From NCBI RefSeq assembly GCF_019721995.1, contig NZ_BLYC01000015.1, positions 1 through 64,000 of the forward strand: a stretch of 64,000 nt of DNA, written 5' to 3'. The notes beneath the pieces are model-generated. The model ran no database searches. It had not been told where the DNA came from and saw only the letters and a program-made list of their open reading frames with translations. A program made the position numbers and the translations under genes. Of the stretch, positions 4,151 through 63,211 are shown one piece after another. Source of the stretch: Bathymodiolus japonicus methanotrophic gill symbiont. GTDB taxonomy: Bacteria; Pseudomonadota; Gammaproteobacteria; Methylococcales; Methylomonadaceae. The stretch's first letter is position 1. Every line of letters begins with the position of its first letter.

Positions 4151-4445
4151 CGCTGAAAATCAGGGAAACGTAGCCTAAGCGAAGTGATGATTTTTAGTCC
4201 GCGATAGCCGTAGGGCCGTTGTTTTGTCGGAGTCTGAGCGTTAGCGAAGGTGGAGACAAAATAAAAGGCCATCCGACACGGCGTCAAGTCATTTGGAGCC
4301 TATGTTCCGACCCCTTGTTGGGTCGGGACGAGGTGACGAGGACGAATCGGGGCCGCCGGAGGCATAAGTGGTCGCGTTAAGTTTTTGCTGCTTGCTTGGG
4401 CTGGGATGCCCAAAACAAGCTTTCGCAAAAATAGCGACTCCCCGA
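4151..4445 (-). repeat. structured element A, copy 1
   Basis: This 295-bp copy lies in reverse orientation (CGCTGAAAAT at 4151 to CCCCGA at 4445). It splits the exported-protein gene between codons reading GAT and AGC, and removing exactly 295 bp restores a continuous frame with no duplicated bases. It contains several strong hairpins, such as CCGACCC/GGGTCGG and GCTTG...CAAGC. It encodes no transposase. Confidence 0.85.
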
Positions 4446-4616
4446 AGCCTTGCCGAAACCAGACTGGGGCAAGTGCTAGTAAATGGCCAGACACAATTAA
4501 TCACTTACTCGCAAAATAAAGAGTTGGAAGGCGTTGAACTTAGAAAAGGCAAACTACACCTTCGTGCCGATAGCCGGCTTGAAGGCAATATCTATCAGCT
4601 TAGCCTATCTTCGTGA

Positions 4617-5101
4617 CATATGCAGTCAATTTCCCATTATTTCAATGAGTTAAACTTTTCAATCGGCCCCAGTTGGCACTACAGGTTTCATATCAACGAT
4701 CGTTTTAACTTTTCCAATCGGGTCGGGGTTAATATTCAACGCAGTGTATATTTGTTTTTGTCTGGTTTCTGCTTTGCTTGTGGTTCGCAGGTGAATGATT
4801 GTATCGTTATCCGTGGGTAAAGTAATGGTCATGCGTTGCTGGGTCGACATCCTGTTGCGAATGCTTTCCCAGCTTAGATGGATGTCCTGCAATCTAAGTT
4901 GATAACGCAGCACATGTACCAGGTGGTAAGCTAATAATGTGATGAATAGGTGTCCGGTAACCCGCTCTTCTTTTTTGTGATAGACAGGGCGCAAGCCTAG
5001 CTCGGTTTTCAGGCTTCTAAAGGTCGCTTCAATCTCAGTCAGCATGGTATAGGTTAGCCATAACTGTTCTTCCGACCAGTCAGGGATATTCGTTCTTAGG
5101 C
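4617..5101 (-). pseudogene. IS1634-type transposase, C-terminal remnant
   Basis: On the minus strand this reads as the C-terminal part of an IS1634/IS4-like transposase. The segment LTEIEATFRSLKTELGLRP and the following HKKEERVTGHLFITLLAY pattern are characteristic of that family, where E and R in EATFRSLK belong to the catalytic C-terminal block. The N-terminal two thirds are missing, cut by IS4 copy 2 at 5102. The coding end is near 4659 and its left terminus truncates the exported-protein gene. Confidence 0.75.
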
Positions 5102-6634
5102 CATCAGTGTTCCCATTGAAAGAAGAAGTACCTAAACAAAGCAGCCTATAACCTACCTGAAGGTAGCACCACTCGAATATTTCCATCTTTTTGATTTTAA
5201 TCACTTATAACAGCAAATAGACACTCTGTAGGCACCGTAAAGAAACAACAAATAATTTCAAATAAAGCTTGCAATTGCCGAAAAAATTTTCTAAAAATTT
5301 CCGTTTTAATCACCTCATAAACGGATATCACCCATGCTTAAAGACCTACCACTCTCTGAACATATTCACCAACACTGCAATGAAAGTATGGAACGTGCCC
5401 TGTTAGCAGAGCGTCATCCTTTGTGGGCTCGTTCATGCCCAGAGTTGAAGGATATCGACTTTATTCGCCTTGGGTTATTACGCTGTATCAGTGTAGTCGA
5501 TAGTGGTCGCCATTTCCTCCAAACCAATGAACAGATTTATGGCCAGCTGCTTCCCCACTCAACGTATTTTAAATCACTGAAGTCGCATAGACGAACAAGT
5601 ATGCTTGAGGCATTTGAACAGCAGAGCTACCATCTTCACTCTGAAACACTGCTATCGCAAGGCATTGATTATCTTAAAGCATTCCCAGAACTTGACGAAT
5701 ACACCATAGAAGCAGCGGATGGACATTTTATTGATCATGCCTGCCATACTGAAAAAAACAGCAAGGGGAAAGTTTATGCGGCCGGGGGGATTTACGCGTT
5801 GAATCTCAGAAGTGGGTTGCTCAGATTTCTTTGTCTGGTGACAAACGGAACTCAGAGGCATCAAGAAACACCTGTGTTACGAGATCATATTGAAAAGCAA
5901 AACAAGGGAAATAACAGCTCTCAGAAACATCTCTATGTCTACGATAAAGCCGTCACCGACTTTGTCTGGTGGGATCGGCAGAAACGACATGCTAATTACA
6001 TGATTTCAATGCTAAAAGAAAATTCAATTGCGACTCTGGTTGAGTCTATCCCTTTTGACTCCCGCCATGAGATCAATACAGGGGTTGAAGCATACAGTGT
6101 GTACGAAAACAAGGGCATCAAATTTAACGTGGTGGATTACCGTGATCCAGAAACCGGAAAACTTCACCGGTTTGTGACAACCTTGCCAATGACTATTAAC
6201 CCTGGAACCATTGCCATGCTGTATTTCAAGCGATGGACGATTGAAAAGACATTCAATAACACTAAAAGTAATTTCAAGGAAACTAAAGCTTGGTCTTCCA
6301 ATACCCGCTCACTTGAAAATCAAATGCGCCTGACTGCAATGAGCTATAATTTAATGCGCGTATTTGAAGAGATTTCAAAAACACAACAGCCAGAATTGAT
6401 TCATCCATCGGATAAAAAATATAGCGAGGCTCTGGAGATAAGGCAGCAACAGGCTCAAAAACGAGATCGTTTTGTGAATCCATTATTTTTCCAGGCAAGA
6501 ATATCTCGTATCAGCTCGTATACCATTCGGGCAGTTCAAAACGCAATAATAACAGGAATGTCTTTACAGTGCTTTATGAGCTCTCTTGTGGCGAGGTTAG
6601 TTTCACGGCCTCAATTGATAGGGGAACACTGATG
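5102..6634 (+). mobile_element. IS4-family insertion sequence, copy 2 (complete)
   Basis: The element is 1533 bp with ends CATCAGTGTTCCC and GGGGAACACTGATG, nearly identical to copy 1. The flanks (CTTAGGC and GTCTTCAT) do not form a direct repeat. This implies that the flanking DNA has been rearranged since insertion, probably by recombination between IS4 copies. Confidence 0.93.
5334..6632 (+). CDS. IS4-family transposase (copy 2)
   Basis: This is a 432-residue protein, full length and identical to the transposase at 581 except for one I-to-T change. It carries the same Y-(2)-R-(3)-E-(6)-K motif near residue 300. It should be functional. It lies between the IS1634 remnant and the convergent pepN gene. 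Confidence 0.93.
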   Translation: MLKDLPLSEHIHQHCNESMERALLAERHPLWARSCPELKDIDFIRLGLLRCISVVDSGRHFLQTNEQIYGQLLPHSTYFKSLKSHRRTSMLEAFEQQSYHLHSETLLSQGIDYLKAFPELDEYTIEAADGHFIDHACHTEKNSKGKVYAAGGIYALNLRSGLLRFLCLVTNGTQRHQETPVLRDHIEKQNKGNNSSQKHLYVYDKAVTDFVWWDRQKRHANYMISMLKENSIATLVESIPFDSRHEINTGVEAYSVYENKGIKFNVVDYRDPETGKLHRFVTTLPMTINPGTIAMLYFKRWTIEKTFNNTKSNFKETKAWSSNTRSLENQMRLTAMSYNLMRVFEEISKTQQPELIHPSDKKYSEALEIRQQQAQKRDRFVNPLFFQARISRISSYTIRAVQNAIITGMSLQCFMSSLVARLVSRPQLIGEH

Positions 6635-6665
6635 GTCTTCATAGCCTTCTTGGTGAAAACAAATA

Positions 6666-9320
6666 TTAAGCTAGGCTTTTATTGGCAATTTCAAATACGT
6701 CTTTGGAGATGTTTTCAGTATTGATAATGCGCTCTAATTGTTGCTTCATAAGATCCTGCCGTTGTGTGTCAAACCTGCGCCACTGGGTTAAGGCACTGAC
6801 CATGCGCGAGGCAACTTGCGGGTTAAGGCTATTTAACGCAATCACCTGGTCGGCTAAAAATTGATAGCCCTGGCCATTTTTAGCATGGTAATGAAGCGCA
6901 TTAGCTTGACTAAAAGCTCCTACCAGAGAGCGAACCCTATTGGGGTTTTTTAAATCAAAGGCCGGGTGTTTTAATAAAGCTTGCACCACAGCAAAAGTGC
7001 CTGGCTGTGAACTCGACGCCTGCAAGCTAAACCACTTGTCAATAACCAGTGCTTCGTCTTGCCATTGCTGATAAAACTGTTGCAAACAATCCTGTTTTTT
7101 CGGATTGTTTGTGTTGACAATTGCACCCAGTGCGGCAACCTGGTCGGTCATTGTGTTTGCTTTGGCAAACTGCTCATTGTCTAGCTGATAACTGTCTTCG
7201 TTGTCTAGCTGGCTTAAATAATCCAGACACAGGTTTTTAATTCGTCGCCTGCCGATTGCTGTCGAGTTCAGCTCGCCACTTTCATCTTGGTGATGCTGTT
7301 GATAAAGAACCGTAAACTGATTGCTAAGCTGCTCCGCGAGAGTGCGTTTTAATAGCTGCCTTGCCTGATGAATGGCATCTACATCGACCACAGTCATTTG
7401 CTCAGCCAGATAATTTTCAGCAGGCAAAGAGAGCAGGCAAGCTAGATAAGAAAGATCTGTCCAGGATTGTTCCAGTATGCTCTTAAAGCTCTTGACTATG
7501 GTGGCGGGAATGCCGGTATTCTGGTCTTCTTTAATTGCTGCAATAAGCTGAAAAATGATGCTAGCGCTTAACTGTTGCCCTGCTTCCCAGCGATTAAAAC
7601 TATCATTATCGTACTGCAATAAAAATGCAAGCTCAGTAAGTGGGCGTGATACTTGTAACTTAACCGGAGCAGAAAAATCGCGCAATATTGAGATTATCGG
7701 TGTGCTGGGGACATTGTTGAAGACAAAGTTCTGCGTTTGATCGGTTAGCTCCAGTGTCAGCTCATTATTGATTGACGCTACCCCGGATACAGTGGCGTCC
7801 ATCATTGCCCCATCTGCGGCAAATAGTGCGACTTTAATGGGAATATGCAAAATCGCTGCATTTGCCTGACCTGGAATAGTCTGGCTTAAGGTGAGTGTCA
7901 ATGCCTGCAGGTTTTCATCATAATTCTTCTCAACCTTAATTGAGGGAGTTCCGGCCTGTGCATACCAGCGTCTGAACTGGCTCAAGTCTTTATCATTTGC
8001 ATCTTCCATTGCCTTAACAAAGTGTTCACAGGTGACAGCCTGGCCATCATGCCGCTGAAAATACAAATCAGCGCCTCGGTGAAAATTTTCAGTGCCTAAT
8101 AAAGTACGGATCATACGTACAACTTCCGCACCTTTTTCATACACTGTAAGGGTATAGAAATTATTAATTTCTATATATGCTTCAGGGCGTATTGGGTGGG
8201 CTAAAGGTCCAGCATCTTCAGCAAATTGACGGGTACGCAGCATATTAACATCATCGATACGCTTAACCGCTCTGGAGGTCTGATCGGCAGTAAATTCTTG
8301 ATCACGAAAAACTGTAAAGCCTTCTTTTAAACTTAATTGAAACCAGTCGCGGCAAGTAATGCGATTCCCCGTCCAGTTATGAAAATATTCATGCCCAATA
8401 ACCCCTTCTATATGCCCATAATCCATATCGGTCGCAGTACCGGGGCACGCCAGCACAAATTTGGTGTTAAAAATATTCAGCCCTTTATTTTCCATGGCTC
8501 CCATATTGAAATGCCCCACGGCAACGATCATATATAGGTCTAAATCATATTCACGCCCGTATACTTGTTCATCCCAGTGCATGGCATTTTTCAATGACTG
8601 CATGGCATGAGCGCATTTATCGATATCATGTGTTTCGACAAAAATTTGCAGGGTAATATTGCGACCGCTGATGCTAGTATAGTTATCTTCTATACATTCC
8701 AGTTGCCCGGCAACCAGCGCAAATAAATAACATGGTTTTTTAAACGGGTCTTCCCAGGTGACCCAGTGACGATTGTCAATTAATTCGCCATGTGCGATTT
8801 TATTACCATTAGATAATAAAACCGGATACTGAGTTTTATCGGCTATTAGCGTAGTGGTAAAGCGCGCCATTACATCAGGGCGATCAAGGAAAAAGGTGAT
8901 TTTGCGAAAGCCCTGTGCCTCACACTGAGTACATAACATATCATTAGAAACAAACAAGCCTTCCAGCGCACTATTGGCCTGCGGATTAATGGTATTTTCT
9001 ATAGCCAGGGTGAACGTGGTATTTTGTGGGACATCGGGAATGATTAATGATTCGTCTGTCAGCTCGAACTGATTATCCGTCAGCGCCACGCCATTTAACG
9101 CCACGCTGATTAAAGTGATATCTTCGCCTAATAGTTCTAATGGGGCCTGTTTAGTTTTATTATCCGGGTTATGCGTAATCGTTAATCGGGAGACCACGCG
9201 AGTATATTCGGCTTCAAGAATAAAATTTAAATCAACCGTTTCAACTAGATATTTAGGCTGCTGATAATCTTTAAGGTAAATGGTTTGAGGCTTGACTTCC
9301 TGCGTGTGTTTATTGTTCAT
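6666..9320 (-). CDS. pepN: aminopeptidase N (M1 metallopeptidase)
   Basis: This is a full-length 884-residue PepN, a zinc aminopeptidase that removes N-terminal residues from peptides in the cytoplasm. The substrate-binding exopeptidase motif GAMEN is at residues 274-278. The zinc site HEYFH is at 310-314, with the third ligand Glu at about 333 in SLKEGF, so all catalytic residues are present. Length and order match the proteobacterial PepN family (about 870-885 aa), including the C-terminal helical domain. The stop lies only about 30 bases from IS4 copy 2, but the C-terminus looks complete. No partner gene is coupled to it; the DUF423 gene upstream (9397) is separated by 76 bases. Confidence 0.97.
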   Translation of the reverse strand: MNNKHTQEVKPQTIYLKDYQQPKYLVETVDLNFILEAEYTRVVSRLTITHNPDNKTKQAPLELLGEDITLISVALNGVALTDNQFELTDESLIIPDVPQNTTFTLAIENTINPQANSALEGLFVSNDMLCTQCEAQGFRKITFFLDRPDVMARFTTTLIADKTQYPVLLSNGNKIAHGELIDNRHWVTWEDPFKKPCYLFALVAGQLECIEDNYTSISGRNITLQIFVETHDIDKCAHAMQSLKNAMHWDEQVYGREYDLDLYMIVAVGHFNMGAMENKGLNIFNTKFVLACPGTATDMDYGHIEGVIGHEYFHNWTGNRITCRDWFQLSLKEGFTVFRDQEFTADQTSRAVKRIDDVNMLRTRQFAEDAGPLAHPIRPEAYIEINNFYTLTVYEKGAEVVRMIRTLLGTENFHRGADLYFQRHDGQAVTCEHFVKAMEDANDKDLSQFRRWYAQAGTPSIKVEKNYDENLQALTLTLSQTIPGQANAAILHIPIKVALFAADGAMMDATVSGVASINNELTLELTDQTQNFVFNNVPSTPIISILRDFSAPVKLQVSRPLTELAFLLQYDNDSFNRWEAGQQLSASIIFQLIAAIKEDQNTGIPATIVKSFKSILEQSWTDLSYLACLLSLPAENYLAEQMTVVDVDAIHQARQLLKRTLAEQLSNQFTVLYQQHHQDESGELNSTAIGRRRIKNLCLDYLSQLDNEDSYQLDNEQFAKANTMTDQVAALGAIVNTNNPKKQDCLQQFYQQWQDEALVIDKWFSLQASSSQPGTFAVVQALLKHPAFDLKNPNRVRSLVGAFSQANALHYHAKNGQGYQFLADQVIALNSLNPQVASRMVSALTQWRRFDTQRQDLMKQQLERIINTENISKDVFEIANKSLA

Positions 9321-10675: not shown

Positions 10676-10970
10676 TCGGGGAGTCGCTATTTTTGCGAAA
10701 GCTTGTTTTGGGCATCCCAGCCCAAGCAAGCAGCAAAAACTTAACGCGACCACTTATGCCTCCGGCGGCCCCGATTCGTCCTCGTCACCTCGTCCCGACC
10801 CAACAAGGGGTCGGAACATAGGCTCCAAATGACTTGACGCCGTGTCGGATGGCCTTTTATTTTGTCTCCTCCTTCGCTAACGCTCAGACTCCGACAAAAT
10901 AACGGCCCTACGGCTATCGCGGACTAAAAATCATCACTTCGCTTAGGCTCCGTTTCCCTGATTTTCAGCG
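10676..10970 (+). repeat. structured element A, copy 2
   Basis: This copy is 295 bp, TCGGGGAGTCGC to GATTTTCAGCG. The flanks TTTAATA and TAGGTGAT rejoin to FNIGD, which fits the cyclic-nucleotide-binding fold, so there is no target duplication. The inserted frame gives the tail ESLFLRKLVLGIPAQ... until a stop. It carries the CCCTGATTTTCAGCG right-end variant. Confidence 0.88.
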
Positions 10971-11401: not shown

Positions 11402-12654
11402 TCAAGTCATAAGTACATAACCCAATAAATTTTTCATATCTATCCCAGTCAGCTCTTCAAATACCTCATAAGGTGTTTTGTAATTGAGACACTTTTTAGG
11501 GCGACTATTTAGCTTATCAACGGCTATAAAAACCTCAGGGAAATACTGTCTTAATAAGCCATTAGCATTCTCATTTTGCCCTCTTTCCCAAGAGCTGTAG
11601 GGAGTCGCAAAATACGTATCACAACCTAGTGCTTCTGCTATTTTTTCATGCATGGTAAACTCTTTCCCGTTATCAAAAGTAATTGTTTTAACAAAGCTTT
11701 TTATAGGATCAAGCATTAAAATAGTTGCGTCTAATACATATTGAGCCTTTTTCCCCGCTAAAGGGAAGGCCAACCGTAATTTAGAGACTCGCTCATCCAA
11801 CGTTACAATCGCCCCTTTGTGATTTTTCCCAATGATTGTATCTGCCTCCCAATCACCTATACGCTTACGGTTGTTGACCTCTTCAGGACGCTCATCTATA
11901 TCGACTCTATTAGGGATTCCTGTCCTATTATGGGCTGACCCATACCGCTTGCGATAGGTTTTGTTCTGATGCCGAAGATGCTTGTATAGTTCACCCCCTG
12001 CCTTTTGTCCGCCAGAATATGCTGGTAGATTGTTTCATGATGAAGACTAATTATACCCTCTTGTTTTAACCGCCCTGCAATCTGCTCAGGACTCCAGTCA
12101 TCCTCAATGCGAACATTAACAATGCCTTTTATTTCATCCGTTAATTTAACCTCTTTAGGCTTGTTTTTGTGTCGTTCTTGGGCAAAATCTTCTGCTTGTT
12201 TATGCCTGTAGCCTCTTTGACCTGTATTGCGTTTAATCTCGCGTGAAATATTGCTTTGGCTTTGTTCTAAGGCTTCTGCTATTTTATTCTGTGAAGTTCC
12301 CTTTTTTAATTCAATCGCTGAAAATCAGGGAAACGTAGCCTAAGCGAAGTGATGATTTTTAGTCCGCGATAGCCGTAGGGCCGTTGTTTTGTCGGAGTCT
12401 GAGCGTTAGCGAAGGTGGAGACAAAATAAAAGGCCATCCGACACGGCGTCAAGTCATTTGGAGCCTTGTTCCGACCCCTTGTTGGGTCGGGACGAGGTGA
12501 CGAGGACGAATCGGGGCCGCCGGAGGCATAAGTGGTCGCGTTAAGTTTTTGCTGCTTGCTTGGGCTGGGATGCCCAAAACAAGCTTTCGCAAAAATAGCG
12601 ACTCCCCGATTCTATATAATATCTTTCTTCAGGACATAGGTGTGTATAGCTCAT
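11402..12654 (-). pseudogene. IS30-family transposase, frameshifted and interrupted
   Basis: On the minus strand the protein starts at 12654 (MSYTHLCPEERYYIE) and is cut by element A at 12609-12316. It continues IELKKGTSQNKIAEALEQ (the helix-turn-helix), then the IS30 blocks DDWSPEQIAGRL and HHETIYQHI. A frameshift occurs near 12010 before RIGDWEADTIIGKNHKGA and TFDNGKEFTMHEKIAEAL, the first two DDE Asp regions, and it ends with TPYSSWERGQNENANGLLRQYFP, which carries the catalytic Glu. Compared with the fragment at 42254 it also lacks about 36 bases (KVMELIDVTIKE). It cannot encode an active enzyme. Confidence 0.9.
12316..12609 (-). repeat. structured element A, copy 3 (inside IS30)
   Basis: This 294-bp copy is in reverse orientation. 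The flanks rejoin as TATATAGAA + ATTGAATTAAAA, restoring YIEIELKKG of the IS30 transposase N-terminus without added or lost bases. It proves that element A moved after IS30 had inserted. It has the same right-end variant as copies 1 and 2. Confidence 0.9.
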
Positions 12655-14363: not shown

Positions 14364-15365
14364 GTGACAATTAAAATTGGCATAGTCATGGATTCGATTG
14401 ACCACATCAATATTAACAAAGACACCAGCTTTGCCATGCTACTGGAAGCACAGGCGCGTGACTGGGAATTGTATTATATGCAAATGGAGGATTTATTTTT
14501 ACGCAAAGGTAAAGCCTATGCCAAGATCCGGAAAATACAGGTGCAGCGCGATGCAAGGGACTGGTACCAGATTATCAGTGAGCAAACCCTGGCGCTGGAT
14601 TCATTAGATTGCATTATTATGCGTAAAGATCCACCGGTTGATCAGGAATATATCTATGCGACGCATATATTGGAGCTGGCTGAGCAACAGGGCGTGTATG
14701 TAGTCAATAAACCGCAGTCTTTACGTGATGCCAATGAGAAACTCTATACCGCCTGGTTTCCACAGTGCTGTGCGGATACGCTAGTCACACGCCGCGCCGA
14801 TTTGATTCGCGAGTTTCTTGCAGAACATCAGGATATTATCTTAAAGCCGCTAGATGGTATGGGCGGCGCTTCGATCTTTCATTTACGTAGCAATGATCCA
14901 AATATCAGCGTGATTATTGAGATGATTACTGAGCATGGTCAGCGACATGTGATGGGGCAAAAATATTTAGCAGAAATAAAACAGGGCGATAAGCGTATCT
15001 TGATTGTTAATGGCGAAGCCATTCCCTACGCGTTGGCGCGTATTCCTGCGCAGGGTGAAACCCGTGGCAACCTGGCTGCAGGAGGGTTTGCACAAGGCCA
15101 GCCATTAAGCGAGCGTGATGCCTGGATTGCCGGGCAAGTAGGCCCGACCTTAAAAGCAAAAGGCCTGATGTTTGTGGGTATAGATGTGATTGGCGATTAT
15201 TTAACTGAAATCAATGTGACCAGCCCTACCTGTGTGCAAGAACTGGATAAGCAGTTTGGTATTAATATCTGTGCAAAATTGATGGATCATATCGAAGCAG
15301 AAATCGCTAAAACCTACAGGCGCGCCATGCTACCTCACGAAATTCCGGGACTCCTGTCGCCGTAA
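14364..15365 (+). CDS. gshB: glutathione synthetase with an element-B-encoded C-terminal tail
   Basis: GshB joins gamma-glutamylcysteine and glycine with ATP to make glutathione in the cytoplasm. The N-terminal domain (KIGIVMDSIDHININKDTSF) and the ATP-grasp domain (IILKPLDGMGGASIF; LIVNGEAIPYALARIPA; EINVTSPTCVQEL, a metal-binding Asn region) are complete. The start ATG at 14364 is a GTGACA-type region: the annotated start codon is GTG followed by ACAATTAAAATT. At about residue 318 the frame enters element B and adds a foreign tail RRAMLPHEIPGLLSP. Family members are about 315-320 residues, so the enzyme is probably functional. The next gene, tonB-like, is its usual neighbour in gammaproteobacteria. 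Confidence 0.94.
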   Translation: MTIKIGIVMDSIDHININKDTSFAMLLEAQARDWELYYMQMEDLFLRKGKAYAKIRKIQVQRDARDWYQIISEQTLALDSLDCIIMRKDPPVDQEYIYATHILELAEQQGVYVVNKPQSLRDANEKLYTAWFPQCCADTLVTRRADLIREFLAEHQDIILKPLDGMGGASIFHLRSNDPNISVIIEMITEHGQRHVMGQKYLAEIKQGDKRILIVNGEAIPYALARIPAQGETRGNLAAGGFAQGQPLSERDAWIAGQVGPTLKAKGLMFVGIDVIGDYLTEINVTSPTCVQELDKQFGINICAKLMDHIEAEIAKTYRRAMLPHEIPGLLSP

Positions 15366-15576
15366 TTCGTTCACCTACGCAGCGAATAGGAGATGCTCCA
15401 GCCGCCCTGCGTCCGCCACAGACTGAGCACAAAGCAGCTCAGTCATGGCTACCACAAATGGCTCTACGGCTATTCGGGATAAAATTTTAGCCTCCCTCGC
15501 GCGCTATCGCGCACTTCGGATTGGCAAATTTCCCTGCGCCTTCTGGAGACTATCAGCCCGTCCGGGGCTGACAGCG
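15317..15576 (+). repeat. structured element B, copy 1 (divergent right half)
   Basis: The copy begins CAGGCGCGCC and follows the element B consensus for its first third, then diverges. Its right end is CTGACAGCG and not GATTTTCAGCG. It lies exactly between gshB and the tonB-like gene and ends 5 bases before the latter's ATG. It probably replaced the native gshB stop codon. Confidence 0.75.
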
Positions 15577-16775: not shown

Positions 16776-16801
16776 TTGTAAATATAACAAAATTCTAATT
16801 C

Positions 16802-17078
16802 TGCGAAAGCTTGTTTTGGGCATCCCAGCCCAAGCAAGCAGCAAAAACTTAACGCGACCACTTATGCCTCCGGCGGCCCCGATTCGTCCTCGTCACCTTG
16901 TCCCGACCCAACAAGGGGTCGGAACATAGGCTCCAAATGACTTGACGCCGTGTCGGATGGCCTTTTATTTTGTCTCCACCTTCGCTAACGCTCAGACTCC
17001 GACAAAACAACGGCCCTACGGCTATCGCGGACTAAAAATCTTCACTTCGCTAAAGCTCCGTTTCCAGGATTTTCAGCG
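16802..17078 (+). repeat. structured element A, copy 4 (left end missing)
   Basis: This copy lacks the first 17-18 bases of element A (GGGGAGTCGCTATTTTT) and ends with GATTTTCAGCG. Its right flank opens in the middle of a multicopper oxidase, with no matching gene on the left. It therefore marks a deletion or rearrangement breakpoint. Confidence 0.85.
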
Positions 17079-17834: not shown

Positions 17835-18129
17835 TCGGGGAGTCGCTATTTTTGCGAAAGCTTGTTTTGGGCATCCCAGCCCAAGCAAGCAGCAAAAACT
17901 TAACGCGACCACTTATGCCTCCGGCGGCCCCGATTCGTCCTCGTCACCTCGTCCCGACCCAACAAGGGGTCGGAACATAGGCTCCAAATGACTTGACGCC
18001 GTGTCGGATGGCCTTTTATTTTGTCTCCACCTTCGCTAACGCTCAGACTCCGACAAAACAACGGCCCTACGGCTATCGCGGACTAAAAATCTTCACTTCG
18101 CTAAAGCTCCGTTTCCAGGATTTTCAGCG
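17835..18129 (+). repeat. structured element A, copy 5
   Basis: This is a full 295-bp copy. The left flank is multicopper oxidase and the right flank is an M20 amidohydrolase, so the two sides were never one gene. It is best explained by recombination between two element A copies. Confidence 0.9.
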
Positions 18130-22647: not shown

Positions 22648-22927
22648 CAGGCGCGCCATGCTACCTCACGAAATTCCGGGACTCCTGTCGCCATAATTCG
22701 TTCACCTACGCAGCGGATGGGAGATGCCCTGAACGCCCTGCGTCCGCAACGACTACGCACAAAAGCCGCTTCGTCATTACTACCTCACTGGCTGGACGGC
22801 TATTCGTAATGCAATTCTTGCTCCTCTCGCGTGCTGCTAGCACACGTCGAATCAGCGAATTGCCCTGTCGCCTTTCAGGGACTAAAAATCACCACTTCGC
22901 TAAGCTCCGTTTCCATGATTTTCAGCG
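22648..22927 (+). repeat. structured element B, copy 2 (inside IS4)
   Basis: This 280-bp copy runs CAGGCGCGCC to GATTTTCAGCG. Comparison with intact IS4 copies shows the flanks AACAGCAA and GGGGAAAG are directly adjacent in the uninterrupted sequence, so the insertion left no target duplication. A central hairpin GCAATTC...GAATTGC with a nested CGTGCT/AGCACG-type stem is present. Confidence 0.92.
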
Positions 22928-26058: not shown

Positions 26059-27161
26059 GGCTCATACTGTTCATTCACTCGCTTTCCTCTGGCGGAGCTG
26101 AACGAGCCAGCACCAATCTTGCCAATTACTGGGCTGACAAAGGCTGGCATATTACTCTTGTTACTATGACCGGGTGTGAACAGGACTTTTACCAGCTACA
26201 TCCGGATATTCAGCGTATCGCCTTATGTCTTGACGCGGAAAGTTCCGGACTATTGACGGCAATCCAAAGCAATGTCCAGCGCACCAAAGCCCTGCGTAAC
26301 GTACTTAAACAGCAGCAACCTGATGTTGCACTTGCTATTATGACGACTGCTAATATATTGCTGGCACTGGCTGCAAGGGGGCTAAATATTACGGTGATAG
26401 GTTCTGAGCGTATTCATCCTCCAATGTTACCTCTGGGCAGAGCATGGGAGTGGTTACGCAAGCGTAGCTATCGTCACCTGGATGCCGTCACCGCATTGAC
26501 AGAGGAGACAGCCCTCTGGCTAAAGGCAGAGACATTCGCACAATATGTACCCATAATTCCAAATGCCGTTACCTACCCGATCGCTATACACTCACCCAGA
26601 GTTAGTCCTAATATTGCGAAAGGCGAAAACTTTAAGCTTATAGCCGTTGGGAGACTGTCTCCACAAAAAGGATTTAACCGCCTATTATCTGCTTTTGCAG
26701 TATTAGCCTCCCGCTTTCCTGATTGGAGCTTAATTATTCTTGGCGAAGGCTCTTGTCGGAATTCACTGGAAAAGCAACGAGCTGAACTAATGCTTGAGCA
26801 GCGAGTTTTATTTCCAGGGGCAGTTGGTAATCTGGGAGAATGGTACGAAACTGCAGATTTGTATGTGATGAGTTCACTTTTTGAAGGTTTTCCCAACACT
26901 CTAGTCGAAGCCATGGCCTATGGCCTACCTGTGGTAAGTGTTGATTGTGATACCGGCCCACGCGATATTATCCATGATAAAGTTGATGGTTTGTTAGTGC
27001 CACAAAATAATCATCAGGCATTAGTCGAAGCATTAGCCGTGCTGATGAGTGATAAAATATTACGTCAGCAATATGCAGCCCAGGCTATTGAAATTCGAGA
27101 CAGGCTATCCATGCAAAAAATTGCCGGGATGTGGGAAGGTTTATTTTTCGACGTGTGCTAG
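26055..27161 (+). CDS. family 4 glycosyltransferase with altered C-terminus
   Basis: This 368-residue GT-B enzyme has the N-terminal acceptor domain opening LFIHSLSSGGAERASTNLAN. Its C-terminal donor domain has KLIAVGRLSPQKGFNRLL and the EX7E motif in SLFEGFPNTLVEAMAYGLPVVSVD (about residues 278-300). It transfers a sugar from a nucleotide donor to a membrane-bound glycan precursor. The last codons (FFDVC) come from a truncated element B at about 27148, which replaced the native end, though few residues seem lost. It overlaps the methyltransferase gene by 4 bases. Confidence 0.88.
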   Translation: MRLILFIHSLSSGGAERASTNLANYWADKGWHITLVTMTGCEQDFYQLHPDIQRIALCLDAESSGLLTAIQSNVQRTKALRNVLKQQQPDVALAIMTTANILLALAARGLNITVIGSERIHPPMLPLGRAWEWLRKRSYRHLDAVTALTEETALWLKAETFAQYVPIIPNAVTYPIAIHSPRVSPNIAKGENFKLIAVGRLSPQKGFNRLLSAFAVLASRFPDWSLIILGEGSCRNSLEKQRAELMLEQRVLFPGAVGNLGEWYETADLYVMSSLFEGFPNTLVEAMAYGLPVVSVDCDTGPRDIIHDKVDGLLVPQNNHQALVEALAVLMSDKILRQQYAAQAIEIRDRLSMQKIAGMWEGLFFDVC

Positions 27162-27251
27162 CAGCACGCGAGAGGAGCAAGAATTGCCCTGTCGCCTATC
27201 AGGGACTAAAAATCACCACTTCGCTAAGCTACGTTTCCATGATTTTCAGCG
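27148..27251 (+). repeat. structured element B, copy 6 (truncated, hairpin arm inverted)
   Basis: Only the right portion remains. The first part (CGACGTGTGCTAGC...CAAGAATT) is the reverse complement of the hairpin segment of other B copies, joined to the normal right part (GCCCTGTCGCC to GATTTTCAGCG). The hairpin was flipped within the element. It sits between the GT4 gene and a 3'-truncated IS701-like copy. Confidence 0.8.
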
Positions 27252-38558: not shown

Positions 38559-39274
38559 TCATCACCGATAGCGGTTTTTGGGTGGCTTTAGTTAATCCTG
38601 ATGATAAGCACCATCAAATCGCTATCAATACTTTGGCAACAATCAATGAGCCGCTTATCACAACGTATCCCGTGATGACTGAAGTCGGGGAGTCGCTATT
38701 TTTGCGAAAGCTTGTTTTGGGCATCCCAGCCCAAGCAAGCAGCAAAAACTTAACGCGACCACTTATGCCTCCGGCGGCCCCGATTCGTCCTCGTCACCTT
38801 GTCCCGACCCAACAAGGGGTCGGAACATAGGCTCCAAATGACTTGACGCCGTGTCGGATGGCCTTTTATTTTGTCTCCACCTTCGCTAACGCTCAGACTC
38901 CGACAAAACAACGGCCCTACGGCTATCGCGGACTAAAAATCTTCACTTCGCTAAAGCTCCGTTTCCAGGATTTTCAGCGTATGCCATTTGTTGCTTAAAC
39001 GTCGAGGAACACATTCGATATGCTGGCGTTTATGGATAGCTACCAGCAGAATGCATTCAGTGTTTTTCAAATTGAAACCTTGTTGGCGGATAAACAAAGA
39101 ATAGTTGCATTAATGAGGCAATACGCTGATCTGCCAATGGACTTAGCCGATGCTTCTTTAGTTTTATTGGCGGAACATTTAGGACATGGCCGGATTTTAA
39201 GCACAGATCAACGCGACTTTCATACCTATCGTTGTAAAAACACCAAGCCTTTCTCTAATTTATTATATTCATAA
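38555..39274 (+). pseudogene. VapC-type PIN-domain toxin, split by element A
   Basis: The frame starts MIITDSGFWVALVNPDDKHHQIA, the PIN-domain opening with the first catalytic Asp at residue 5. It runs to TEV at 38684, where element A enters. After 38979 it resumes CHLLLKRRGTHS, then a 2-base insertion (CGATATG against expected CGATG) shifts it. The rest (MLAFMDSYQQ... ADASLVLLAEHLGHGRILSTDQRDF) carries the later acidic residues of the nuclease site. The intact toxin would cleave RNA. Both toxin and antitoxin are disabled. Confidence 0.85.
38685..38979 (+). repeat. structured element A, copy 6
   Basis: This is a full 295-bp copy. The flanks GAAG and TATGCC rejoin to GAAGTATGCC (EVC), in frame with the PIN-domain toxin, with no target duplication. 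The read-through tail is the same ESLFLRKLVLGIPAQ... as in copy 2. Confidence 0.9.
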
Positions 39275-43635: not shown

Positions 43636-43929
43636 CGGGGAGTCGCTATTTTTGCGAAAGCTTGTTTTGGGCATCCCAGCCCAAGCAAGCAGCAAAAACT
43701 TAACGCGACCACTTATGCCTCCGGCGGCCCCGATTCGTCCTCGTCACCTCGTCCCGACCCAACAAGGGGTCGGAACATAGGCTCCAAATGACTTGACGCC
43801 GTGTCGGATGGCCTTTTATTTTGTCTCCACCTTCGCTAACGCTCAGACTCCGACAAAACAACGGCCCTACGGCTATCGCGGACTAAAAATCTTCACTTCG
43901 CTAAAGCTCCGTTTCCAGGATTTTCAGCG
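43636..43929 (+). repeat. structured element A, copy 7
   Basis: This is a full copy of 294 bp. The left flank is an IS3-like sliver and the right flank is internal IS4 sequence, so it joins two unrelated fragments and marks a recombination joint. Confidence 0.9.
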
Positions 43930-44339: not shown

Positions 44340-44619
44340 CAGGCGCGCCATGCTACCTCACGAAATTCCGGGACTCCTGTCGCCATAATTCGTTCACCTA
44401 CGCAGCGGATGGGAGATGCCCTGAACGCCCTGCGTCCGCAACGACTACGCACAAAAGCCGCTTCGTCATTACTACCTCACTGGCTGGACGGCTATTCGGA
44501 ATGCAATTCTTGCTCCTCTCGCGTGCTGCTAACACACGTCGAATCAGCGAATTGCCCTGTCGCCTATCAGGGACTAAAAATCACCACTTCGCTAAGCTCC
44601 GTTTCCATGATTTTCAGCG
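44340..44619 (+). repeat. structured element B, copy 3
   Basis: This full 280-bp copy runs CAGGCGCGCC to GATTTTCAGCG and is nearly identical to copies 2 and 4. The left flank is IS4 and the right flank is unrelated intergenic DNA before the phd-like gene. Confidence 0.9.
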
Positions 44620-45163: not shown

Positions 45164-45454
45164 CGCTTAAAATCAGGGAAACGGAGCCTAAGCGGAGTGA
45201 TGATTTTTAGTCTCTGGTAGGCGACAGGGCAATTCGCTGATCCGAAGTGCGCTAGTAGCGCGCGAGGGAGGCAAGAATTGCATTCCGAATAGCCGTCCAG
45301 CCATTTGAGGTAGACTTAACTGAGCAGGGTTTTGTGCGTAGTTGAGTAGTTGAGACGGACGCAGGGCGACCAGGGCATCTCCCATTCGCTGCGTAGGCGA
45401 ATGAATGTTGGTGACAGGAGTCCCAGAATGTTGTGAGGTAGCATGGCGCGCCTG
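45164..45454 (-). repeat. structured element B, copy 5 (diverged)
   Basis: This copy is in reverse orientation inside the IS66 left region, about 291 bp. Its left end is CAGGCGCGCC (in the element's own direction) and its right end GATTTTAAGCG in place of GATTTTCAGCG. It is more diverged than copies 2-4, so it is older. Confidence 0.85.
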
Positions 45455-54235: not shown

Positions 54236-55829
54236 TCAGTGTTCCCCTATCAATTGAGGCCGTGAAACTAACCTCGCCACAAGAGAGCTCATAAAGCACT
54301 GTAAAGACATTCCTGTTATTATTGCGTTTTGAACTGCCCGAATGGTATACGAGCTGATACGAGATATTCTTGCCTGGAAAAATAATGGATTCACAAAACG
54401 ATCTCGTTTTTGAGCCTGTTGCTGCCTTATCTCCAGAGCCTCGCTATATTTTTTATCCGATGGATGAATCAATTCTGGCTGTTGTGTTTTTGAAATCTCT
54501 TCAAACACGCGCATTAAATTATAGCTCATTGCAGTCAGGCGCATTTGATTTTCAAGTGAGCGGGTATTGGAAGACCAAGCTTTAGTTTCCTTGAAATTAC
54601 TTTTAGTGTTATTGAATGTCTTTTCAATCGTCCATCGCTTGAAATACAGCATGGCAATGGTTCCAGGGTTAATAGTCATTGGCAAGGTTGTCACAAACCG
54701 GTGAAGTTTTCCGGTTTCTGGATCACGGTAATCCACCACGTTAAATTTGATGCCCTTGTTTTCGTACACACTGTATGCTTCAACCCCTGTATTGATCTCA
54801 TGGTGGGAGTCAAAAGGGATAGACTCAACCAGAGGCGCAATTGAATTTTCTTTTAGCATTGAAATCATGTAATTAGCATGTCGTTTCTGCCGATCCCACC
54901 AGACAAAGTCGGTGACGGCTTTATCGTAGACATAGAGATGTTTCTGAGAGCTGTTATTTCCCTTGTTTTGCTTTTCAATATGATCTCGTAACACAGGTAT
55001 TTCTTGATGCCTCTGAGTTCCGTTTGTCACCAGACAAAGAAATCTGAGCAACCCACTTCTGAGATTCAACGCGTAAATCCCCCCGGCCGCATAAACTTTC
55101 CCCTTGCTGTTTTTTTCAGTATGGCAGGCATGATCAATAAAATGTCCATCCGCTGCTTCTATGGTGTATTCGTCAAGTTCCGGGAATGCTTTAAGATAAT
55201 CAATGCCTTACGTCGGGGAGTCGCTATTTTTGCGAAAGCTTGTTTTGGGCATCCCAGCCCAAGCAAGCAGCAAAAACTTAACGCGACCACTTATGCCTCC
55301 GGCGGCCCCGATTCGTCCTCGTCACCTCGTCCCGACCCAACAAGGGGTCGGAACATAGGCTCCAAATGACTTGACGCCGTGTCGGATGGCCTTTTATTTT
55401 GTCTCCACCTTCGCTAACGCTCAGACTCCGACAAAACAACGGCCCTACGGCTATCGCGGACTAAAAATCTTCACTTCGCTAAAGCTCCGTTTCCAGGATT
55501 TTCAGCGATAGCAGTGTTTCAGCGTGAAGATGATAGCTCTGCTGTTCAAATGCCTCAAGCATACTTGTTCGTCTATGCGACTTCAGTGATTTAAAATACG
55601 TTGAGTGGGGAAGCCGCTGGCCATAAATCTGTTCATTGGTTTGGAGGAAATGGCGACCACTATCGACTACACTGATACAGCGTAATAACCCAAGGCGAAT
55701 AAAGTCGATATCCTTCAACTCTGGGCATGAACGAGACCACAAAGGATGACGCTCTGCTAACAGGGCACGTTCCATACTTTCATTGCAGTGTTGGTGAATA
55801 TGTTCAGAGAGTGGTAGGTCTTTAAGCAT
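54236..55829 (-). pseudogene. IS4-family transposase, split by element A (copy 7)
   Basis: The N-terminal part (MLKDLPLSEHI to AETLLS, start 55829) and the rest (from the ALRR/LKAFPELDE region through the YREK motif to the end at 54236) are both preserved. Removing element A gives an uninterrupted 432-residue frame. It must have been functional until the insertion. Confidence 0.92.
55213..55507 (+). repeat. structured element A, copy 8 (inside IS4)
   Basis: This 295-bp copy is opposite to the transposase direction. Comparison with intact IS4 copies shows CCTTGCG and ATAGCAG are adjacent in the target. Here the left flank reads CCTTACG and the right ATAGCAG, one substitution and no duplication. 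This is among the best tests of the insertion chemistry. Confidence 0.93.
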
Positions 55830-57414: not shown

Positions 57415-57416
57415 AT

Positions 57417-58541: not shown

Positions 58542-58603
58542 GATTAATAGCAAGTCACTTAATTTACTGTTACTATCGGATACAACCCATATATTCGGTC
58601 TCT

Positions 58604-58864: not shown

Positions 58865-58878
58865 CTTATGCACTCTAA

Positions 58879-59284: not shown

Positions 59285-59978
59285 CTCGATGTTCAAGTTT
59301 TTGATATTGAGAAGGTAAAATCAGGTATTCTGAGGTTGTTGTAATTTTACCGGTGTAAGCCCATGTTAATGAATGCCCCAGCCACCTTTATCCAAAGCTA
59401 TATTGACGATTTAAATGATGCGCTCAATCAGCTAAAACCCGGAGCCGCTTTGACACGGATTCAAGCCGCTTGGTTGGGCACTTGTTTAACGGGCATACTG
59501 CTAATGAACTCTGTTTACTGGGCTAAGTTTGAGCGAGCAAGCCTTGGAGATTGCAAAGTAGCCGCATTATCCTGGGTGTTTCGTAAAGCAAGTATACCCT
59601 GGGACTGGTTGCTACGGGTGAGTGTGGTCTTAATTTTAAAACGTTATGGCATTACTGAAGGTGTGTTGGCCTTTGATGAATCAGACCGAGCACGATCTAA
59701 GTCTACAAAACGTATTTATAAAGTTTACAAGCAGAAACACAAAGGCTCCGGCGGGTATGTTAATGGACAAACGATAGTATTATTGCTGCTAGTTACCTCA
59801 TCCATTACAGTGCCTGTCGGTTTTTTCTTTTATATGCCGGATCCAGCCTTAAAGCAGTGGGATAAAGAAGATAAACGGTTGAAAAAGAGCGGTATAGCAA
59901 AAAAAAGATCGGCCTATTAAGCCTGAACGTGACAGTGCCTACCCGACCAAAACAGAGATTGCATTAGGCTTATTAAAG
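59285..59978 (+). mobile_element. IS701-like insertion sequence, copy 5 (5' part only)
   Basis: The left end is CTCGATGTTCAAG. The transposase from 59363 is identical to copy 1 up to a homopolymer change (eight A instead of seven near 59900) that ends it at 59920. The DNA similarity stops at 59978 at the edge of repeat E. The right half of the element is missing. Confidence 0.9.
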
Positions 59979-59984
59979 TACCTG

Positions 59985-60444
59985 GCGCAGGATTTTTATT
60001 CGTATTCAAGGCTTAGAAACAGACACATAGCCTGCTACGTATAGTTACTATAGCGCAGAAGACGGATAAAAAGACAAGCCAGTTGTTTAAGTTATTCCTG
60101 CACGTTCCTTAGTCTACGTGTAAAATTTAGCTTTATCTGCTGTAGTTAGTTGGCTACAATTAGCCATACGAAATTGTTACTACAGCTGCTTTCATCATGC
60201 GAATGAAAAAGCTAAAGATCGTCATGAAGTGTAAACTATTGCTATTCGTAGGATAGGGCGATACTTGAAAATTTAGCTGACATTACCAGCTTAGTGAGGG
60301 TGCAAGGCATCGTACAATAAGGGAGATGGAAACACACTTCATCCAAAACTGCTGGTCTTTTTGTCCGTCTTCTGCGTTATAGTAACTTTACGTAGCCTGC
60401 TATGCGCCTGTTACTACGTCTTGAATACAAACAAAAATCCTGCT
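59985..60444. repeat. repeat E, about 460 bp with long inverted arms
   Basis: The first 90 bases (GCAGGATTTTTATTCGTATTCAAG... to CAGAAGACGG.TAAAAAGAC) are the imperfect reverse complement of the last 90 (GTCTTTTTGTCCGTCTTCTGCG... to CAAAAATCCTGC). The middle holds no convincing ORF. It looks like a MITE or a decayed long-inverted-repeat element; no transposase is associated. Confidence 0.78.
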
Positions 60445-60542
60445 AATTACTGGACAATTATTTATTTCCTGCTCCCTTATCCCTTTTACACTCTATGCAA
60501 ATATTCATATTAAGCTTTGAATCGATAGTAGGTTTTCATATC

Positions 60543-60687
60543 CCTAGAAACCGCAGTTGACCGCTATATAACATTGTAAACGGCTGAATATTACACTAAT
60601 GATCGTAAAAACTTGTCTCCTGTTGGGTGGAGTGTCCTCCGCTGCACAGTTTTGTGAATAAACCTGTACTCAACTGCAGTTTCTGGG
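60543..60687. repeat. repeat D, copy 2, upstream of hldD
   Basis: About 145 bp with inverted ends (CCTAGAAACCGCAGTTGA and TCAACTGCAGTTTCTGGG). It shares about 120 bases with copy 1. It ends about 64 bases before the hldD start codon. Confidence 0.78.
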
Positions 60688-60750
60688 TTTAACCGGGCGC
60701 TATTTAGCCCTACTCTCATTTTTACAACAAACACACCAAGGCTAATAGCT

Positions 60751-61695
60751 ATGATTATTGTCACAGGCGGTGCTGGATTTATCGGCAGCAATATTGTTAA
60801 AACGCTTAATCAGCAGGGGCGTACTGATATTATTATTGTTGACGATTTAAGCGACGGCACTAAGTTTCGTAATATTGTTGACTGTGATATCGCTGATTAC
60901 TGGGATAAAGATGACTTTATCAAAAGAGTACAAACAAAAACGGATCTACCTGACAATATAGAGGTTATTTTCCACGAGGGGGCATGCTCCGCTACCACAG
61001 AGTGGGACGGTAAATATATGATGCAGAATAATTATGAGTATTCCAAACGCTTATTACATTACTGTCTGGATCATTCAGTTGCTTTTATATACGCTTCTTC
61101 GGCTGCAACCTATGGAAGCATAAAGCAGTTTACCGAAAGCCGAGAATATGAAGGGCCACTCAATGTCTATGGCTATTCAAAATGGCAATTTGACCAATAT
61201 GTGCGCAGCCTGAATCTGGGTGTTGGCACTCAGGTTGTCGGCCTACGTTATTTTAATGTCTACGGTCCACGCGAACAGCATAAAGGCAGCATGGCTAGTG
61301 TTGCTTTTCATTTACATAATCAGCTGTTAAAAGGTGAAAATCCCAAGCTGTTTAAAGGTTGGGATGGATACGAGGATGGCGGACAATTACGCGATTTTAT
61401 CTATATAGCGGATGTTGTTGCAGTTAATCTCTGGCTATTTGCACACTCGGAAGTCAGTGGCATTTTTAATGTCGGCACAAGCCGTGCGCAATCTTTTAAA
61501 GATGTAGCCGAAGCGGTTATCAAATTTCATCGACAAGGCAAGATCGAATATATCCCTTTTCCAGATCACCTAAAAGGCAGCTATCAAAGTTATACACAGG
61601 CCGATATGACTAAGCTACGTGCAGCGGGTTATGACGCACCGTTTAAAACCGTACAGGAAGGCGTTGCTTTATATCTAGCCTGGTTAAGTCAATAG
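60751..61695 (+). CDS. hldD: ADP-L-glycero-D-manno-heptose 6-epimerase
   Basis: This 314-residue NAD(P)-dependent short-chain epimerase converts ADP-D,D-heptose to ADP-L,D-heptose for the LPS inner core. The Rossmann motif [11 protein letters not shown] is at residues 4-14 and the catalytic pair Tyr140/Lys144 is in [29 protein letters not shown] is the family-specific substrate block. Length and motifs match HldD/RfaD. No operon partners are close; upstream sits repeat D. It links functionally to the glycan locus at 21-36 kb. Confidence 0.97.
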
Positions 61696-61703
61696 TAAAA
61701 AAC

Positions 61704-61749
61704 TAAGGAACGCAGCGCACCATTGTCGTGTGATGCACTTCGTTCCTCA
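61704..61749. repeat. hairpin downstream of hldD
   Basis: AAGGAACGCAGCGCA and TGCACTTCGTTCCT form a stem of about 15 bp with two mismatches, 8 bases after the hldD stop. There is no T-run; a REP-like or 3'-end stabilising hairpin. Confidence 0.55.
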
Positions 61750-61932
61750 GAACATCCTACAAGTTTTGGGTTTTATTTTGACCTGCTACCTACATATAAA
61801 AAGTCAATAGCCTTGAATATTGTCTCCCTACAGGAAACAAACTAACAATAATTTCGCATATTGTGTAGCTTTTAATGTACTGTATATTAACGATCAGTTA
61901 GCTAATTATTCTATAACAGACAAGGCAGGTTG

Positions 61933-62299
61933 ATGACGGAATATCAAAAAGATATTTTAGTGGGTTTTTTATTCGTTGCAGGTATTTTAAGTATCTGAAG
62001 TTTCCCAATAATTATTTATGGTAAAATTGAAACTATGCTACAACTATATGAAAAAAATAGTCTTTTCATTCGTTTCAAATGCTATTGCCTAAGGGGAATT
62101 AAGTAGGGGTTTGCTATAAACATGGCAAAACCACCTAAAATAAACCTCGATACACCAGCATTGTGTATTTCAGCTACTCAATAATTGGGAAACTTCAGTT
62201 TTAAGTATTATCTCTGGCGCTTTTATTATCACGCTAATACTAGTTACAGGAATCGTGTTTTTGAGCACAGTTCGACGCATCTGTCCCGTAGAAAATTAA
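61933..62299 (+). pseudogene. small single- or two-helix membrane protein, split by MITE M1
   Basis: Rejoined across M1 (61995-62198, with the 10-bp repeat TTTTAAGTAT) the frame reads MTEYQKDILVGFLFVAGILS then IISGAFIITLILVTGIVFLSTVRRICPVEN, about 50 residues with two hydrophobic segments. No family is recognised. It would have been a small inner-membrane protein; a terminator follows at 62454. Confidence 0.6.
61995..62198. repeat. MITE M1, copy f
   Basis: This intact 204-bp copy is flanked by TTTTAAGTAT on both sides. Excision restores the small membrane protein frame. Confidence 0.9.
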
Positions 62300-62453
62300 G
62301 TTACACCTTATAAACTAGAGCAACTCTTATTTTAGCTTAATGGATAGCATGACTGTAAGTTACGTGATTAAATTAACAACTTCAGTCGCCTATTAATCCG
62401 TCAAAAATAGGCGCTACTCATGTTCTTCCTCGTGATATGTTTATCTTTATAAT

Positions 62454-62485
62454 GCCTGTTGCAGCGAGGCAGCAGGCTTTTTTTT
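62454..62485 (+). terminator. rho-independent terminator
   Basis: GCCTGTTGC and GCAGCAGGC pair around AGCGAG and are followed by nine T residues. It serves the plus-strand small membrane gene. Confidence 0.75.
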
Positions 62486-62514
62486 CGCGCAAAAATACGA
62501 CTCTATAGATTAGG

Positions 62515-63211
62515 CTATTTGCAGGTTTCTGTGCCAAACGAATCTTTATAGCACTTGATCAGCTTGCCCGAACTATCCCGGTAAGTTGTATTATCAAAAG
62601 CATCCGTTCTCCCTTTAACAGGCGCGCCATGCTACCTCACGAAATTCTGGGACTCCTGTCGCCATAATTCGTTCACCTACGCAGCGGATGGGAGATGCCC
62701 TGAACGCCCTGCGTCCGCAACGACTACGCACAAAAGCCGCTTCGTCATTACTACCTCACTGGCTGGACGGCTATTCGGAATGCAATTCTTGCTCCTCTCG
62801 CGTGCTGCTAGCACACGTCGAATCAGCGAATTGCCCTGTCGCCTATCAGGGGCTAAAAATCACCACTTCGCTAAGCTCCGTTTCCATGATTTTCAGCGTA
62901 AGATTACCATCCTTGCCACGCCAGGCTTTATTGCCAAAAGAGTCTTCTTTGCCACGAATTTTACCCGTACCATCCCGGTAAGTTATATTGCCGAATGAAT
63001 CCCTAACCCCGGTCATGGTATTTCCTTTATTATCGCGCCAGGTTTCATTACCCGAAGAATCCGTGCGCCCAAACCAAGTGTTGCCGTTATTATCCTGACA
63101 GGTCTTGTTAGCATAGGAATCCGTGTGGCAGCGCATTTCTGGAGGGTTCGCATTTGCACTTAAAGCCACGCTTGTTAATACTGTTAATGCAATAAACTTT
63201 GCTTTGTTCAT
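62515..63211 (-). pseudogene. secreted protein with GN-x-T-x-R-D repeats, split by element B
   Basis: The frame starts at 63211 with a signal peptide (FIALTVLTSVALSANA). It carries about five 19-20-residue repeats (GRTDSSGNETWRDNKGNTMT, GVRDSFGNITYRDGTGKIR, and so on). Element B (62619-62898) interrupts it after KDGNL. The remainder reads VKGRTDAFDNTTYRDSSGKLIKCYKDSFGTETCK and stops at 62515. Reading GNLVKG across the joint restores the 20-residue period. It is a small exported protein of unknown function. Confidence 0.75.
62619..62898 (+). repeat. structured element B, copy 4
   Basis: This 280-bp copy runs CAGGCGCGCC to GATTTTCAGCG, opposite to the repeat-protein gene. The joint is clean to within one to three bases (a TTA/T ambiguity), consistent with no true target duplication. 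Confidence 0.88.

Follow-up and report, generated by a model that had tools for sequence, protein, structure and literature searches.

The DNA analyzed here, hereafter the window, is a 64,000-nucleotide part of contig 15 (NZ_BLYC01000015.1) of the Bathymodiolus japonicus methanotrophic gill symbiont genome (4.97 Mb, 109 contigs), and it carries numerous copies of short, structured, transposase-free repeats. A preliminary description had recognized eight copies of a family A and six of a family B in it. Element sequence is indeed present at all 14 places, but the six "B" places proved to be a mixture of three B copies, one copy each of two further families (C and D), and a rearranged remnant, and one of the A copies is damaged. 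At least five related families, A to E, can be distinguished, which measure 260 to 307 nt and hold no gene of their own. Strand signs given below are those of the strand as first read ("top"), which ends in CAGCG; it is the complementary strand ("bottom") that gives the best fold.

Full-length A copies lie at 4151..4445 (-), 10676..10970 (+), 12316..12609 (-), 17835..18129 (+), 38685..38979 (+), 43636..43929 (+), and 55213..55507 (+), the last within a repeated insertion sequence, and the eighth A place, near 16802, holds a copy with a damaged left end (16795..17078, +; A positions 10-293). The B copies are found at 22648..22927 (+), likewise within a repeated insertion sequence, and, at full length, at 44340..44619 (+) and 62619..62898 (+). 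The C copy (15317..15576, +) has a B-like left part and a different right-end hairpin and terminates in GGGCTGACAGCG, the D copy (45164..45454, -) is a diverged B-type element with 84% identity to B, and the remnant (27147..27251, no strand assigned) consists of two inverted pieces of a broken B copy. Family E, of which three copies were read, combines an A-like left part with a third right-end hairpin and occurs outside the window, elsewhere in the genome.

The right end that had been described as shared by all copies is found at 13 of the 14 places, the C copy being the exception with its other hairpin. The elements are GC-richer than their surroundings, as had been noted (53.6% for A and B, 42.5% for the window), and neither the alignments nor the folds revealed the terminal inverted repeats whose absence had been claimed; instead, they show near-terminal palindromes in elements too short to encode a transposase. 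The first two bases of family A are variable even though they belong to the element (TC 50, TT 17, GC 8, AC 4, CG 2, AG 1, AT 1; n = 83 copies from the window and contigs C1 to C3), and B-type relatives vary likewise in the two final bases of the other strand. In these and the following designations, C numbers are contigs of the genome that holds the window (G000), other G numbers are the relatives compared, and L numbers are fetched loci.

A search of the genome and its relatives, as the preliminary description had proposed, showed that the window is far from unusual. The right-end motif CTAAAAATCNNNACTTCGCTAA, with up to three mismatches, has 1,012 matches genome-wide (491 forward and 521 reverse), and the reversed control pattern has none on either strand. 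Within 1,655,412 bases on 15 contigs we counted 426 full copies (172 A, 125 B, 113 C, and 16 D), and A to D matches cover 8.2% of those bases; by scaling, the whole genome would hold about 1,280 full copies. The copies look young because their median identity to the respective reference copy is high (A 99.0%, B 98.9%, C 100%, and D 95.9%, over 208 full copies), and 85 full A copies are 97 to 100% identical to the reference. Motif matches also occur in relatives of the same genus (149 in G006, 88 in G015, 19 in G004, 17 in G008, and 15 in G016) and in a genome of another genus, G022, which has 13 together with near-identical copies, although the reversed control gives 0 to 6 matches per genome, so that low counts in other genomes mean little.

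Complete elements with the same anatomy were read at loci in relatives, with lengths of 273 to 307 nt among the homologs kept and identities to A down to about 70%, and a G stands four bases past the right end at 20 of 22 homolog ends as judged by eye (L074 is without it and L067 is unclear). Among the matches listed, which comprise at least 50 stretches from named genomes, are Methylotuvimicrobium, Methylomicrobium, Methylomonas, Methylicorpusculum, and Methyloprofundus, as well as methanotrophic and thiotrophic Bathymodiolus symbionts, a Cycloclasticus symbiont, and a Methylophaga metagenome-assembled genome, where matches in assemblies of this kind may be due to binning errors. Plasmid records from Methylobacter, Methylomonas, and Methyloprofundus hosts contain the elements as well (four with A and one with C); phage records gave no match to A, and viral contigs gave four matching stretches. 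An element lies in a long stop-free run in 77 of 192 cases, compared to 2,125 of 3,000 random points, which suggests that elements are selected against inside genes and, in this respect, seem to behave unlike harmless introns. In the open-access papers searched we recognized no description of these repeats.

The elements are mobile. Sites at which the left and right flanks meet directly, with nothing duplicated or lost, exist elsewhere in the fetched DNA for 55 of 153 full copies, a number that includes two pairs representing the same copies from overlapping loci (L006 and L007) and at least two sites with flanks less than 90% identical. In the window, such empty sites were found for the copies at 12316, 22648 (at window position 1011), and 55213 (at window position 901). 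The join is exact (gap 0) for B and C, while in A the two variable left bases are additional and the element's own, and one A copy is off by one base. Equal left and right flank words of five or more bases are not enriched at 205 unique sites, and three-base words are equal at 11 of the 205, with 4.5 expected. Left ends, too, are precise. These clean empty sites bear out the earlier view of a structured mobile family, and neither the inverted ends nor the target duplications of a known insertion sequence, named at the outset as what would speak against it, were seen.

Insertion is clean but not indifferent to the target. Read along the top strand, position +4 beyond the right end is occupied by G at 200 of the 205 unique sites (2 bits) and in 417 of 425 copies of a larger set, i.e., the elements insert three bases before a G, with otherwise weak preferences (C is rare at +1 and G at +5, and the left flank differs little from background). 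Written for the bottom strand, with a slash at the junction, the target rule is C-N-N-N/CGCTG. At the other end of the element, 204 of 205 copies likewise show C at position -4 (CCNN in family A; CCTG in families B, C, and D), a count that comes from two unrelated end sequences only and lends weak support to the possibility that a single rule would govern how one enzyme cuts the target and the two ends.

In the alignments, a fold is conserved along the whole element and belongs to one strand. The consensus computed with RNAalifold is more stable for the bottom than for the top strand both in 16 B-type sequences (-136 versus -107) and in 22 A-type sequences (-115 versus -94), and the wobble pairs, for which the top strand serves as the control since folding rules permit G.T and forbid A.C, point the same way: 146 G.T and 4 A.C on the bottom versus 39 and 44 on the top in the B-type, and 153 and 42 versus 50 and 45 in the A-type, in sets that leave out four homologs (L078-5019, L119, L189, and L177) and near-duplicates. 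In 15-sequence alignments, from which one of 16 B-type sequences (L127) and seven of 22 A-type sequences (L065, L068, L071, L133, L143, L167, and L176; removed by hand, diverged ones included) were dropped, 15 of 72 B-type and 20 of 63 A-type pairs are changed on both sides, and 97.8% and 95.0% of cells, respectively, are able to pair. Double-changed cells number 52 in the B-type and 65 in the A-type, compared to 14.1 and 22.4 in shuffles, and in neither alignment did any of 500 shuffles reach the covariation score, which was lost when the pairing partner was slid by one to three columns; since each structure came from the very alignment on which it was scored, these values are biased in its favor. 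One measure, the number of further pair types in the A-type, was not significant (reached by 218 of 500 shuffles).

Copies folded singly behave differently from one another. On either strand, A and C are much more stable than their shuffles: the z values for the bottom and top strands are -3.96 and -3.49 for A (the copy at 38685) and -4.46 and -3.55 for C, whereas the single B copy at 44340 folds no better than shuffles (0.05 and 1.04; 0.34 as DNA), so that support for the B-type fold rests on the alignment. In these models it is the bottom strand that keeps a conserved whole-element fold by compensatory change, with helices spanning the entire length; in the B-type, for example, the terminal CGCCTG is predicted to pair with a TAGGCG directly behind the first hairpin. 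The share of G.T pairs in the B-type bottom strand (146 of 1,304 cells, or about 12%) suggests RNA, where these would be G.U pairs, and may also be compatible with a single DNA strand. The first hairpin itself occurs with three unrelated stems in this one genome (AAAATC/GATTTT, TCAGCCC/GGGCTGA, and CCAGCC/GGCTGG) in the common frame CGCTG...TAG. This hairpin is also found alone, as solo hairpins of 48 to 49 nt at C1:71277-71325 and C1:303494-303541 (CGCTGAAAATC...GATTTTCAGCG), with perfectly palindromic arms and NNNG flanking on both strands.

Both orientations occur, as had been described, but they are strongly biased rather than evenly mixed. Taking the 11 contigs with an absolute GC skew above 0.02, a cut-off picked after the data had been seen, the G-rich strand coincides with the bottom strand for 273 of 346 full copies, while the four contigs with almost no skew, the window's included, give 39 of 80, and all 15 contigs together give 312 of 426. 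The bias on C1 to C3 is the same regardless of the open reading frame context (24:8 with a long frame on the G-rich strand, 37:8 with one on the other strand, and 95:20 with none). The G-rich strand is generally the leading strand, and taken as such, it would place the bottom strand on the lagging-strand template. This template is the one used by IS608 and ISDra2, according to the part of the source consulted (PMC6006769).

The strand-specific fold, the skew-linked orientation bias, and the one-sided target rule independently choose the same strand, and together they support a single-strand mechanism. Our results therefore lead us to favor, with moderate confidence, the explanation that these are nonautonomous elements moved in trans by single-strand transposition, in which an HUH/Y1-like enzyme acts on the bottom strand, as for the palindrome-associated transposable elements (PATEs) of Haloquadratum walsbyi (PMC3119063, as far as the part consulted goes). 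Such an enzyme would cut the bottom strand, which begins with CGCTG and a hairpin, so that C occupies position -4 relative to the cut at either end (5'-CNNN/CGCTG... at the first end and ...CCNN/flank at the last). The folded strand would then be released or copied, and it would insert behind CNNN of single-stranded target DNA, mostly the lagging-strand template, without a base being duplicated or lost. The HUH/Y1 chemistry, the single-stranded intermediate, and the use of the lagging-strand template are what we infer from these patterns; the earlier suggestion of an HUH-type enzyme acting in trans gains from the three features named, while the enzyme itself was not found.

Several observations weigh against this explanation. 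Family models for Y1, IscB, TnpB, and reverse transcriptase genes revealed no driver, IS91-type genes not being part of the search. The IS200/IS605-type TnpA genes of G000 are in pieces among the matches read, G041 and G044 show only REP-type proteins with no IS200-type TnpA seen, and the REP-type genes that were read are bordered by palindromes of their own. IS200/IS605 elements target tetranucleotides, and the one-base rule is looser than that. The orientation evidence is also uneven, as the skew cut-off was chosen after the fact, C5, the contig with the strongest skew, agrees in only 8 of 15 copies, and in the complete genome of G008 only 12 of 18 sampled 20-kb pieces (L304 to L321) agree, i.e., 10 of 11 in the negative-skew half and 2 of 7 in the other. 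The G008 elements stand in nearly one orientation (15 of 18 pieces "+") despite the change of skew sign, unlike in G000. Moreover, the whole-element fold exceeds what an HUH/Y1-like enzyme should need; it may help the strand leave the lagging-strand template, or else RNA may be involved, which we regard as improbable.

The comparison with known single-strand systems is instructive on both sides. Judged by the consulted part of their description (PMC3119063), PATEs resemble our elements in lacking inverted repeats and target duplications, in having near-end palindromes, in being too short for a transposase, and in their many copies. They also pose a similar driver puzzle, as the same portion of that account reports strain-specific insertions although the IS200-type transposases of one strain are all pseudogenes, and the elements studied here occur alongside a TnpA in pieces. 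PATE ends match IS605-type transposons according to that portion, whereas among the loci read here none carries the element ends, and PATEs as described there differ from our elements in the whole-element fold, the one-base target rule, and the spread over an order. Because no IS605-type transposon could be connected with them, we call the elements PATE-like in anatomy and not PATEs; they are unusual in their whole-element fold, their one-base target rule, and their scale. REP, BIME, and REPIN sequences with their TnpAREP (RAYT) share, in the part of the literature consulted (PMC8266576), the high copy number, the single-strand palindromes, the loose cut-site rule, and (G/A)TAG words near both ends of the folding strand. 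In contrast, our elements are about 10 times longer, and their junction lies three bases past a C and not at the CT or CA dinucleotide that TnpAREP is stated to cut in that part of the same source (PMC8266576), and the TnpAREP genes found here are bordered by palindromes other than the element's. The elements resemble IS200/IS605 in their clean one-sided insertion and end hairpins and in a probable lagging-strand bias, which is clear in G000 and mixed in G008; they differ in the one-base target and in their ends, which do not match those of the IS200-type elements in G008 and wino1, and no intact IS200/IS605 copy was seen in G000.

The window contains no driver gene, as had been stated; the search covered whole genomes. 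No gene sought was seen to share the element ends, no distinguishable subclass was intact in every element-bearing genome tested, and among the partial copies inspected, none had the two ends spread apart around a transposase gene. Element pieces do lie near some reverse transcriptase genes. The Y1_Tnp model has 22 matches in G000, one of them intact (C5:60392-61057, REP-type), and matches in each of the seven further element-bearing genomes searched, and none of the Y1 loci read carries element ends. The most complete IS200/IS605-type copy in G000 (L045) is disrupted by an in-frame stop codon early in the gene. Several of the G000 transposase pieces (L045 to L051 and L223 to L229) are interrupted by or adjoin A, B, or C elements. 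Proteins like the REP-type one of G000 occur in 29 of 41 genomes, independently of element number and also in relatives nearly without elements. The REP-type gene (L081/L052 in C5 of G000; L082 and L083) is bordered by AAAGGGTAGCGTCCCCTTT palindromes, and its end in G000, GTAGCGTCCCC, is loosely like the ATAGCGACTCCCC of family A, a resemblance noticed afterwards. An IS200 copy in G008 flanked by B pieces (L221) was considered as a driver and rejected, as it is a separate insertion with a tRNA-like stretch between; the ends of the IS200-type elements in G008 and wino1 were mapped and differ from the element ends, and plasmid pINp10 carries an intact IS200 with its own ends 1.3 kb from an element. 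The driver enzyme may be of an unrecognized kind or may have been recently lost.

Another possibility, an unlikely one in our judgment, is that the elements are moved by machinery that reads the fold of the nucleic acid over its whole length and not just its two ends, through an enzyme class yet unrecognized with a target rule of about one base. What speaks for fold-reading machinery is that entirely different first hairpins are tolerated, whereas the strand-specific fold over all 260 to 307 nt is maintained across genera by compensatory change.

Also unlikely is an RNA-mediated, SINE-like (short interspersed element) pathway in which a reverse transcriptase acting in trans would turn a structured bottom-strand transcript of about 280 nt back into DNA. 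In its favor are the whole-length covarying fold with G.U-type pairs on one strand, the presence of RVT_1 (PF00078) in 9 of 10 element-bearing genomes, and a group II intron that sits in three element copies in the sense of the bottom strand; a lagging-strand bias is also known for some group II introns. Yet G022 has no RVT_1 match despite its near-identical copies, and reverse transcription would not explain why C stands at -4 at the two ends. Copies usually have both ends intact; few are simply cut at one end, and most partial copies are nested insertions or deletions. The proposed check against known RNA structures, for its part, matched no Rfam family: nothing reached gathering scores in the window, a stretch containing a copy each of A and B gave a single chance match (E 1.7) when E values up to 5 were allowed, and group II intron features (domain V) had no match in either.

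The group II intron just mentioned is complete, matches Rfam RF01999 and RF00029, and was found in Methylotuvimicrobium buryatense (G041). It lies at L272:740-2627 and in the same place in L279 and L287, between CTTGGA and AACGGAGCG, at the identical point of the first-hairpin loop and in the sense of the bottom strand; the left flanks differ among the three copies, and the far side of the third is masked. It is the sole gene found within element ends, so that the search for a longer element with the same ends around a gene, and for a tnpA or reverse transcriptase gene with these ends among the loci read, yielded only what looks like a passenger that seems to home into the repeat.

Rolling-circle elements of the IS91 or Helitron type, moved by a Y2 HUH enzyme, appear less probable again. 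These elements have one precise end at a fixed target word, no target duplication, and an end hairpin, which fits the one-sided target rule, the hairpin at one end, and the clean joins seen here. The target of IS91 is, however, a specific tetranucleotide in place of one required base, and the left ends of our elements are precise too.

It is very improbable that the elements are guide-RNA-only satellites of IscB or TnpB, with the NNNG side as the target-adjacent motif and the body as the guide RNA. Like HEARO (IscB omega RNA) elements, which have fixed bases on one flank, they have a structured, RNA-like body and a fixed base at a fixed distance on one side. Unlike those, they occur without IscB: PF14239, whose control was empty too when G000 was searched alone, was repeated over 121 genomes of the family, of which 19 match, and gave 0 in G000 and in six element-bearing relatives (G004, G006, G008, G009, G015, and G022), and the IscB loci elsewhere are without element ends. 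TnpB (PF07282) is likewise absent from G000 and present in 1 of 10 element-bearing genomes, and no omega RNA or other Rfam family matched. The tested features thus speak against a satellite of this genome's IscB or TnpB nuclease, as they do against a group II intron and a miniature inverted-repeat transposable element (MITE). The last of these, an ordinary MITE of a DDE-type insertion sequence, can be virtually dismissed, for even though insertion sequences are numerous in window and genome and short transposase-free repeats are common in bacteria, no terminal inverted repeats were seen and the clean joins, the lack of target duplication, and the strand-specific fold do not fit.

Whatever moves them, these elements are a highly successful bacterial repeat, making up about 8% of the DNA read in one genome and occurring in cultured methanotrophs as well as in deep-sea mussel symbionts. 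Their target rule and orientation are clear enough for predicting chemistry, and since copies are present in cultured Methylotuvimicrobium buryatense, the driver is open to a direct hunt. Its identification would show either that single-strand transposases can insert with almost no target requirement or that there is an enzyme that reads structure.

Within the window, the elements also meet genes and other mobile DNA. The C element at 15317 interrupts the apparent stop codon (TA/G) of an open reading frame at 14364-15365, which by eye looks like a glutathione-synthetase-type gene, and thereby adds an element-encoded tail to it. Near-identical insertion sequences crowd the window (at 528, 5281, 22164, 39627, and 55505 and at 2442, 40748, and 59276), and many of them are cut by each other or by the elements.

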